Shown here: positions 52,599 through 56,390 of the stretch, piece after piece
Numbering within the stretch: position 1 is the stretch's first letter
How the letters are laid out: each line of letters starts with the position of its first letter
Assembly (NCBI GenBank): GCA_902529805.1
Contig: CABZXU010000010.1
Span: forward strand, 1 to 56,390
Length of the DNA: 56,390 nt
From: an uncultured Marinoscillum sp.
Lineage (GTDB): Bacteria > Bacteroidota > Bacteroidia > Cytophagales > MED-G16
Direction: 5' to 3'
Position numbers and translations under genes: made by a program
The notes under the pieces: model-generated
The model's input: the letters and a program-made list of their open reading frames with translations, nothing else
What the model was told of the DNA's origin: nothing
Database searches by the model: none

Positions 52599-55500
52599 AT
52601 GTATAAATCATTTAAATTTTATTTTTTTCTAATTCTATCTTTTTTTTTAATTGAATCTATTCATTCACAAGGCTACTCTAAAATAGGAGAAATTACTGGA
52701 GAAGGTTCTATTGATAATTTTGGTTATGCGGTTGCAATCAATGGTGATGGTACGATTATTGCCGTTGGTGCCATTAATAACGATAATCCTAATGGAGGGC
52801 TTTCAGGTCACGTGCGAGTGTATCAATATGCAAATAATACTTGGACGCAGCTTGGTCAAGATATTGATGGAGAGGCAGCTCAGGATCAAAGTGGCAATTC
52901 CGTTTCTCTTTCTAATGATGGAACCATTTTAGCCATTGGAGCTTCAAATAATAGCAGCAATGCAGCTAAGTCAGGACATGTTCGAGTGTATCAATATGCA
53001 AATAATACTTGGACACAATTAGGCTCTGATATAGATGGAGAAGAAGCAGATGATTTTTTTGGTTATGATGTATCACTTTCTGACGATGGAACCATCTTAG
53101 CTGTTGGTTCTCAATATGGACCTGAACGAATCTTTAAATATTCAAACAACAATTGGATACAATTAGGTCAAAAAATTTATGGAGAAGCTGTTGGTGATCA
53201 AAGTGGTACTTCTATTTCACTTTCGGGAGATGGAAATACTGTAGCTGTTGGTGCTCGACTTAGTGATGGAAATGGAACTAATTCAGGTCATGTAAGGGTC
53301 TATCAAAGAGTAATAAATACAACTATTGGTTATGGAACAAGGGGAACTGCAACATTTAAAACAGTAGATGGTGGGGTAACCTGGACAGAGGTTAATTATG
53401 ATGATTATATTAATTTAAGTTTTCCTACAGAAACTATTGGTTATGGAACAAGGGGAACTGCAACATTTAAAACAGTAGATGGTGGGGTAACCTGGACAGA
53501 GGTTAATACAGATGATTATATTAATTTAAGTTTTCCTACAGAAACTATTGGTTATGGAACAAGGGGAACTGCAACATTTAAAACAGTAGATGGTGGGGTA
53601 ACCTGGACAGAGGTTAATACAGATGATTATATTAATTTAAGTTTTCCTACAGAAACTATTGGTTATGGAACAAGGGGAACTGCAACATTTAAAACAGTGA
53701 ATGGTGGGGTAACCTGGACAGAGGTTAATACAGATGATTATATTAATTTAAGTTTTCCAACAGAATACTGGAAACAAATCGGTGATGACATTGATGGAGA
53801 GGTAGCAAATGATCTAAGTGGCAGGGATGTTTCATTGAATACTGATGGAACAATTTTGGCCATTGGTGCTGACGGTAACGATGGAAATGGAAATGCATCT
53901 GGTCATGTACGCGTTTATCAATATGCTAATAACTCTTGGACACAATTAGGTCAAGATATAGATGGAGAAGCAATTGGTGATCAAAGTGGCTTTTCAGTTT
54001 CACTTTCTAGTGATGGAAAAAAAGTAGCTATAGGCTCTCCACACCATACTAATTCTCTAAATGGTGATGGTCTTGTAAAAATTTATTCATATAATGGAAC
54101 TTCCTGGCAACAAAGTGCAGGAATGAATATAGTTAGTAATGGTGCTGCAGGTACTTATTCTGGTAATTCAGTAGCTTTAAGTGATAACGCTGAGAGAATC
54201 ATAATAGGTGCTAAAGGATCTGGAAATCAAAATTATAATGGGATAATAAGAGTTTATGAATATAATGGCCCGTCTGTTAAACTTTCTTCAACTAGCGGAG
54301 GAGCTACTGAAGGAATAAATGCTACTTACCAAATCAGAGCAAAGATAACCAATGCTCTTGCTCATATCCCAACATCAGTAGATTTGGTTTTAACATCTGG
54401 TGATGTGGCAGACATAGGAAATTATACAACTCAAACAATCACTTTTCCTGCCGGAAGCACACAAGAAGATACCGTAAACATAACCATCACAGATGATAAC
54501 GATATAGAGCCAGATGAAGATTTTGTTTTTACACTCCAAAACGTTGTAGGGTTTGGTGCATCTATAGGAAATAACGATACTCATACCCTTACAATAGATA
54601 GTGAAGATGCTTCGGGAAATTGGACACAATTAGGCTCTGATATAGATGGAGAATCAGCTGGCGATCATAGTGGTTGGTCTACTTCTTTTAATGATGATGG
54701 AACTATACTAGCTATTGGAGCTATACAAAATAATAATAATTCAGGGCATGTGCGCGTGCACAAATGGAATGGAAGTGCATGGACACAATTAGGTCAAGAT
54801 ATTGATGGATCGGGCACAGAAATGAGTGGGCATTCTATTTCACTTAATGGCGATGGAACAAAACTTGCTGTAGGCGTTCCTTATACTCAACAATATGGTG
54901 CAAACACCGGTGAAGTTCGTGTTTATGAGTATGCTAATAACACCTGGTCTAAACTAGGACAAGATATTGTTGGAGAGGCGTCTCAAGATGAAAGTGGTTT
55001 TTCTGTTTCACTTTCTAGTGACGGAACTATTGTTGCAATTGGTGCTAAAGGAAACGATGAAAATGGAATTGTTAATTCAGGACATGTAAGGGTATATAAG
55101 TATTCAAATAACAGCTGGTCTCAATTAGGTATGGATATTACTGCTGGAGAAAGTGATGGTGATGAAAGTGGCAGGTCTTTATCACTTTCTAGTGACGGAA
55201 CCATTGTTGCTATTGGTGCTCCAAAAAATGATGGAGGAGGTCATCAAGACGGAGGTCAAGTTCGTGTTTTTCAATACATTAACAATAACTGGGTTCAATT
55301 AGGTGATGATATTCATGGAGAATATCGTACAGATCAAAGTGGTTATTCTGTTTCACTTTCTAGTGATGGCATGAGAGTTGCAATTGGTGCTATTGGGAAT
55401 GATGCAACTGAAGCTAGTATAAATTCTGATTTAGGACATGTACGTGTATATCAATTTTCTAATAATAACTGGACACAGATTGGACAAGATATTGATGGGG

Positions 55501-56390
55501 AAGATATTCAAGATCAAAGTGGTAATTCTGTTTCTCTTTCTGGTGATGGAAATATTCTTGCTATAGGCGCTAAAAACAACGATGGAGGAACAGGCGTTTT
55601 ATATCAAAATTCAAAAAGAGGTCATGTAAGACTATATCAGTATGCTAATGGCAATTGGAGTCAACTAGGTCAAGAAATCAATGGGGTAGCTTCTAATGAT
55701 TATAGTGGCCGTTCAGTTTCTCTTAATAAAAATGGTAATACGGTAGCTATTGGCGCTCCATATCACGATAATAAAATTGGACAGGTAAGGGTATTTAGCT
55801 TTCCTACCACTTCAGTAAAACTTACTAGCACTACAGCTACAGTAACAGAGGGAACAAATGCAACCCATAACATAGAAATTTCAATTACTAACCCTAGCTC
55901 AAATGCTTCAACAAGTGTTGATTTGGTGTTAACTTCAGGAGATACAGCCGATGTGGGTGGGTATACAACTCAAACAGTTATATTTCCTGCTGGAAGCAGT
56001 GCGTCAAAAACAGTTGCTGTTACCATTTCTGATGATAATATTGTTGAATCCAATGAAGAAGTTGTGTTTACCCTTCAAAATGCTACTGGAGGAAATAGAG
56101 CTATATTATCTTCTCCTACTTCAAAGACTATAACCATTATAAGTGATGATGTTGCTAATACATCTCAGATTGGCGCAGACATTGATGGAGAAGCAGCGAA
56201 TGATCGAAGTGGCTATTCTGTTTCAATGAACGCAGATGGAACTATCGTAGCTATAGGAGCTCCAGATAATGATGGAAATGGAAATAACTCAGGACATGTT
56301 AGAGTCTATCAATATGCAAATAATACTTGGACACAAATAGGAGTCGATATTGATGGAGAGGCAGCTCAGGATCAAAGTGGCAATTCCGTT
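52599..56390 (+). CDS. Giant secreted repeat protein: 7-fold propeller-like repeats alternating with Calx-beta-like domains (3' end outside window)
   Basis: The frame is open from ATG 52599 to the last base: 1264 codons visible and no stop. A signal peptide (about 1-24, ending SIHSQ) is followed by repeats of about 55 residues of the form W-x-Q-L-G-x-D-I-D-G-E ... D-x-S-G-x-S-V-S-L-S-x-D-G-T ... A-I-G-A ... S-G-H-V-R-V-Y-Q-Y. Seven repeats (to about 54269) precede a Calx-beta-like domain (54270-54617). Seven more (54621-55799) precede a second one (55800-56165), and two more follow. Between repeats 4 and 5 lies a 4 x 37-residue array with the Asp-box KTVDGGVTW. It is probably a surface adhesin or secreted matrix protein. 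Any C-terminal sorting domain is outside. Confidence 0.88.
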   Translation, partial: MYKSFKFYFFLILSFFLIESIHSQGYSKIGEITGEGSIDNFGYAVAINGDGTIIAVGAINNDNPNGGLSGHVRVYQYANNTWTQLGQDIDGEAAQDQSGNSVSLSNDGTILAIGASNNSSNAAKSGHVRVYQYANNTWTQLGSDIDGEEADDFFGYDVSLSDDGTILAVGSQYGPERIFKYSNNNWIQLGQKIYGEAVGDQSGTSISLSGDGNTVAVGARLSDGNGTNSGHVRVYQRVINTTIGYGTRGTATFKTVDGGVTWTEVNYDDYINLSFPTETIGYGTRGTATFKTVDGGVTWTEVNTDDYINLSFPTETIGYGTRGTATFKTVDGGVTWTEVNTDDYINLSFPTETIGYGTRGTATFKTVNGGVTWTEVNTDDYINLSFPTEYWKQIGDDIDGEVANDLSGRDVSLNTDGTILAIGADGNDGNGNASGHVRVYQYANNSWTQLGQDIDGEAIGDQSGFSVSLSSDGKKVAIGSPHHTNSLNGDGLVKIYSYNGTSWQQSAGMNIVSNGAAGTYSGNSVALSDNAERIIIGAKGSGNQNYNGIIRVYEYNGPSVKLSSTSGGATEGINATYQIRAKITNALAHIPTSVDLVLTSGDVADIGNYTTQTITFPAGSTQEDTVNITITDDNDIEPDEDFVFTLQNVVGFGASIGNNDTHTLTIDSEDASGNWTQLGSDIDGESAGDHSGWSTSFNDDGTILAIGAIQNNNNSGHVRVHKWNGSAWTQLGQDIDGSGTEMSGHSISLNGDGTKLAVGVPYTQQYGANTGEVRVYEYANNTWSKLGQDIVGEASQDESGFSVSLSSDGTIVAIGAKGNDENGIVNSGHVRVYKYSNNSWSQLGMDITAGESDGDESGRSLSLSSDGTIVAIGAPKNDGGGHQDGGQVRVFQYINNNWVQLGDDIHGEYRTDQSGYSVSLSSDGMRVAIGAIGNDATEASINSDLGHVRVYQFSNNNWTQIGQDIDGEDIQDQSGNSVSLSGDGNILAIGAKNNDGGTGVLYQNSKRGHVRLYQYANGNWSQLGQEINGVASNDYSGRSVSLNKNGNTVAIGAPYHDNKIGQVRVFSFPTTSVKLTSTTATVTEGTNATHNIEISITNPSSNASTSVDLVLTSGDTADVGGYTTQTVIFPAGSSASKTVAVTISDDNIVESNEEVVFTLQNATGGNRAILSSPTSKTITIISDDVANTSQIGADIDGEAANDRSGYSVSMNADGTIVAIGAPDNDGNGNNSGHVRVYQYANNTWTQIGVDIDGEAAQDQSGNSV
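52860..52904 (+). repeat. 45-bp exact duplicate of 56346-56390
   Basis: The 45 bases here, encoding DIDGEAAQDQSGNSV, recur without a mismatch at the window's right edge (56346-56390). Most other repeats of the gene are more divergent at the DNA level. The match may continue past the window. Confidence 0.9.
53322..53765 (+). repeat. Four near-identical 111-bp tandem repeats
   Basis: Units begin at 53322, 53433, 53544 and 53655, each exactly 111 bases (37 codons), so the array keeps the frame. Copies differ only slightly: copy 1 has TATGAT where the others have ACAGAT, and copy 4 changes GTAGAT to GTGAAT (Asp to Asn in the Asp-box) and CCT to CCA. Each unit encodes TIGYGTRGTATFKTVDGG and then VTWTEVN. 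The array splits one propeller repeat after RVYQ. Confidence 0.95.

Follow-up and report, generated by a model that had tools for sequence, protein, structure and literature searches.

The 56,390-nucleotide window analysed here, contig C10 of a 1.65-Mb draft genome of an uncultured Marinoscillum sp. (55 contigs, 89% complete), carries a gene in which four near-identical Asp-box blades are inserted, in frame, into a single blade of an FG-GAP_2 propeller. The array is real and not a chance pattern, and its site is the hairpin turn between strands C and D in blade 4 of the first propeller. We consider it probable that one Asp-box blade was gained by, or arose in, this turn and was then amplified in tandem. 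Amplification of propellers from single blades is known; what is unusual is the nesting of the new blades inside an FG-GAP blade.

An array of four units in the C-D turn of blade 4

The host gene (52599-56390, forward strand), delimited from the ORF list, Pfam matches and blade parsing, is truncated at the end of the window. From N to C terminus its product has a signal-like N-terminus, a seven-bladed FG-GAP_2 propeller, a Calx-beta domain, a second seven-bladed propeller, another Calx-beta domain and the beginning of a third propeller; Pfam recognised FG-GAP_2 (PF14312) in 13 stretches (E 5e-54) as well as Calx-beta (E 6e-13). Propeller 1 (52689-54280, forward strand) was parsed into the seven repeats of an FG-GAP_2 propeller, with blades 1 to 7 starting at 52689, 52857, 53025, 53169, 53784, 53952 and 54120.

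The contig stops inside propeller 3, and its final 45 bp (56346-56390) match positions 52860-52904 of the host gene exactly. A collapsed repeat at the contig end was rejected, because these 45 bp recur within the contig only at 52860-52904 and have no close match on other contigs. In a related genome (G008), similar arrays of 168-bp FG-GAP blades (85% matches) are found on contigs C2, C3 and C38 (L097, L095 and L096, respectively), two of the three near the contig start; such genes seem to break assemblies.

Analysis of the region with TRF revealed a single tandem array without indels at 53321-53765 (period 111, 4.0 copies, 98% matches). At a lag of 111 the sequence matches itself exactly over as much as 188 bp, compared with 8-12 bp in shuffled sequence of the region. 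The initial annotation had described four in-frame 111-bp units at 53322-53765, and TRF, comparison of the units and the ORF list all agree with this description: every unit is read in the frame of the ORF that runs from 52599 to the contig end. Units 2 (53433-53543) and 3 (53544-53654), all units being on the forward strand, are identical and represent the consensus. Unit 1 (53322-53432) departs from them by three adjacent nucleotides (TAT instead of ACA, replacing Thr with Tyr), and unit 4 (53655-53765) by three nucleotides that change Asp to Asn within the Asp-box and make one silent change.

Blade parsing supports the earlier view that the array interrupts the fourth repeat of the first propeller, which is blade 4 of seven. 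Strands A-C of this blade occupy 53169-53321 and strand D (YWKQIG), with which the host blade picks up again, 53766-53783, so that the blade reads GHVRVYQ-RVINT-array-Y-WKQIG. The equivalents of RVYQ and WKQIG had been taken to be contiguous in all other repeats. This is wrong, as a five-residue turn (YANNT, YSNNS or YINNN) lies between them, and a comparable turn, YRKINNTW, is present in L090, a paralogue from the genus mate. The residues RVINT (53307-53321) are thus a normal turn that has been retained; the native turn of blade 4 appears intact, and the insertion seems to have come without cost to the host blade. Among the propeller proteins compared (own genome, three relatives and phage contigs) this is the sole insertion within a blade, no further one having been found in the related proteins; the remaining long gaps in them are paired blades with a missed signature or domains between propellers.

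Could the array have been stitched into the FG-GAP gene from another gene or organism by a false join? The window represents a single contig from a draft genome, neither a copy of the unit elsewhere nor an orthologue with or without the insert was found in the searches described below, and the initial annotation had itself raised an assembly artefact. However, the FG-GAP blade restarts at the exact next residue, in frame and with its native turn retained, the composition and codon usage of the array match those of the host gene, and two independent matching junctions would be needed. We therefore regard a false join as very improbable; the part of the earlier suspicion that stands is doubt about the number of copies, owing to the 188-bp exact repeats.

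Unit identity and predicted fold

Each unit is one Asp-box blade, kin to the blades of YCF48, VPS10 and BNR proteins. The unit sequence, TIGYGTRGTATFKTVDGGVTWTEVNTDDYINLSFPTE, contains the Asp-box (S/T-x-D-x-G-x-T-W), which reads TVDGGVTW in units 1-3 and TVNGGVTW in unit 4, and the four-unit insert scored 31.4 bits against the Pfam BNR family (PF02012), above the cut-off of 27; motif and match together bear out the canonical Asp-box previously ascribed to the unit. Its relatives are YCF48/BNR-type blades from many phyla, at most 49% identical to it (40-49% for the best). Since the spacing of Asp-boxes among these relatives is mostly 36-55 residues, the 37-residue unit corresponds to a single blade at the short end of the range.

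AlphaFold2 predicted the insert alone, on an alignment with 16 YCF48/BNR-type relatives, with a mean pLDDT of 88.6 and a pTM of 0.83. The model has four strands per unit (within one repeat length, residues 40-44, 47-51, 59-62 and 67-70). The 543-residue nested domain was predicted with a pLDDT of 86.7 and a pTM of 0.81, and in this model the host strands flanking the insert are intact, while the last strand of unit 4 (residues 358-363) falls below a pLDDT of 50. Both models rest on shallow alignments (of 17 and 16 rows, respectively), so that they cannot be used to judge how the two propellers are oriented to each other.

YCF48/HCF136 is a stand-alone photosystem II assembly factor made of seven diverged blades. 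Like it, the array consists of Asp-box blades, and YCF48 structures (5ojp, 2xbg) were the first Foldseek matches of the insert model (E 3e-6, query TM-score 0.59). They were also the top profile matches, obtained with a profile enriched by relatives; the insert sequence alone had no match in the PDB. Unlike YCF48, the array has four units, and its identity to YCF48 is about 20%. The array is not a stand-alone seven-bladed protein of this kind: the four units are nested in an FG-GAP_2 protein, and the similarity is at the level of the fold only.

Some integrin alpha chains carry an inserted I domain, of the Rossmann type, in the propeller loop that connects blades 2 and 3. The host domain resembles these proteins in being a seven-bladed FG-GAP propeller, and Foldseek matches of the nested domain in the PDB include the integrin alpha propellers (alphaM and alphaX; 7usm, 5es4) at a TM-score of about 0.48; double-propeller WD40 and GH74 proteins, whose TM-scores are very low, account for many of its top-ranked matches. 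The host domain differs in that its insertion is a repeat array and lies in the turn between strands C and D of blade 4.

The FG-GAP_2 type of propeller is common to phage particles and this bacterial, probably secreted, protein. Two IMG/VR contigs (L112:4467-5645 and L113:4809-5990) encode FG-GAP_2 propellers of seven blades that share about 51% identity with that of the window, and the proteins that bear them match PHROG virion structural and tail fibre families. The 1906-residue virion protein at L112:2388-8105 also contains 21 [AST]TP tripeptides (13 of them ATP), dispersed along its length and encoded by varied codons.

Proposed origin and amplification of the blades

Judged by sequence identity, the amplification is recent, as the initial annotation had proposed for the expansion: the units are 97-100% identical to their consensus at the nucleotide level, whereas the blade segment at the contig end shares 66-77% DNA identity with other FG-GAP blades of the host gene. 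The units also exceed the 60% identity between blades above which propellers are taken as recently amplified (PMC9218822). Their near identity may reflect a single recent expansion or ongoing homogenisation.

The proposed origin begins with a first blade of YCF48/BNR type, acquired by, or originating in, the hairpin that links strands C and D of blade 4. It would then have been multiplied by slippage during replication or by unequal recombination among the 111-bp units, the units at the edges drifting while the inner ones stay identical. As the unit is one whole blade of 37 codons, copies could be added or removed with the reading frame and the host propeller unbroken. In favour of this origin we count the array and its frame, the intact halves of blade 4, the BNR match, the 37-residue spacing, the predicted fold, the host-like composition, the absence of other insertions within blades in the proteins compared, the documented amplification of single blades (PMC9218822) and a second recent Asp-box array in L037; against it we count that neither a donor or ancestor nor an orthologue without the insert was found, the low confidence of the last strand of unit 4, the want of a known four-bladed Asp-box ring and a copy number that would be unreliable in a short-read assembly.

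Searches of the own genome, its genus and family, 391 genomes from its order and about 85,000 species genomes, as well as viral, plasmid and phage sequences, found no other near-identical unit, nor did the genome, viral, phage and plasmid collections yield a donor or single-copy ancestor of the first blade. As far as tested, this agrees with the earlier remark that the unit has no sequence in common with its surroundings, since matches in the own genome are short or weak and confined to Asp-boxes; the best of the weak ones, to a VPS10-like Asp-box protein, is 72% over only 20 amino acids. Foreign DNA as the origin was rejected, given a G+C content of 35% for the unit and 37% for the remainder of the gene and codon usage within the range of the gene. 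A mobile-element reading was likewise set aside, because the 5-bp AATAC near both edges yields no in-frame empty site. An orthologue of the host gene without the insert was not found; the genus mate has FG-GAP paralogues, no clear orthologue of the gene and no copy of its neighbour, so no empty site is available to polarise the insertion.

Two further loci contain Asp-box proteins. A Chloroflexi MAG carries a separate recent amplification of Asp-box blades (L037:10085-10570; 123 bp x 4, 90% matches), and the genome of the window encodes four consecutive paralogous Asp-box/VPS10-like proteins of 1019-1178 amino acids with T9SS-like tails (G000:C3:18000-36000, L098).

The strand order of the insert is BCD-(ABCD)x3-A, in which the terminal A may complete a ring by pairing with the BCD at the start ('velcro'); such closure would also join the two ends of the insert, as insertion into a hairpin requires. 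The Asp-box rings known to us have six or more blades, and we know of no precedent for a four-bladed one. The four units are therefore probably a nascent or incomplete propeller in the form of an open arc, one half of a pair with a second copy, or an undercount. In Afanasieva 2019 (PMC6805158), partial sets of identical blades could be stable and blocks of four blades formed dimers; those propellers are engineered from WD40 blades, unlike the Asp-box array described here.

An undercount deserves serious consideration, with a likelihood that we place somewhat short of even. The array would then be real but contain a number of middle units other than two, for instance four to six, giving a complete six- to eight-bladed propeller; this is compatible with in-situ amplification and alters only the count. 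To our knowledge, a complete Asp-box ring takes more than four blades in the known families. The 188-bp exact repeat exceeds the usual k-mers of short-read assembly, so that the copy number would be unreliable if the genome was assembled from short reads, and distinct edges with identical inner units are also what loop resolution by an assembler would be expected to give. Limits of read length on tandem repeats are well documented and long ones are recognised as miscounted (PMC6868369), a caution also found in PMC9218822. On the other hand, the contig crosses the array, where an assembly made with k-mers shorter than 188 should have broken off.

The array may also be a recent, functionless product of slippage that the loop tolerates and that will soon be lost or degraded. 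An Asp-box residue of unit 4 is already altered, its last strand is predicted at low confidence, and the insert occurs in only one genome. However, the frame is intact across all units, the Asp-box and core residues are retained and the predicted fold is confident, and we regard this neutral reading as rather unlikely.

Probable secretion and possible roles

The host protein is probably secreted by the type IX system. As the end of its own gene is missing, this assignment follows from the TIGR04183 sorting tails on related proteins, namely a paralogue in the genus mate (G001) and an Asp-box protein of the same genome. Blades amplified in situ may then be displayed as a side module of a secreted protein, and length variation of the array is plausible. 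A more specific proposal, that copy number varies between cells and, under selection, alters how far a secreted adhesin reaches or how it binds, is possible but doubtful. It would be in keeping with the in-frame unit, the near-identical copies and the position on a surface hairpin, as well as with FG-GAP or Asp-box propeller proteins of the same genus that have T9SS sorting tails. Still less likely is a nested 'propeller nursery', a loop of an FG-GAP propeller in which Asp-box blades would be gained and lost within the living population, so that the surface proteins of different cells carry different numbers of inserted blades.

Pereira and Lupas (2022; PMC9218822) described new propellers as being continuously amplified from single blades, including near-identical ones. 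Asp-box propellers make up to 5% of their set, which includes Bacteroidetes and ranges from 2 to 47 blades. The array resembles these propellers in its tandem, near-identical blades derived from one blade. It differs in that the new blades lie within a single blade of a propeller that belongs to a different supercluster (the FG-GAP/VCBS type); the 'locally repetitive' cases of that study adjoin other propeller blades, and the word 'insert' is absent from its main text. Our limited search of the open-access literature found no description of Asp-box blades nested in an FG-GAP blade.

Propellers are thought to arise through copying of a single blade, and near-identical cases are the best evidence for this. 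The locus appears to show a new protein domain at the moment of its birth by copying. This step seems to have been caught within a propeller that already existed and is unrelated to the new blades, which would form an inserted side domain and replace nothing. If the copy number is fixed, this would be one more recent amplification at an unusual address; if it varies in nature, the birth of a domain and its effect on a secreted protein could be watched directly.
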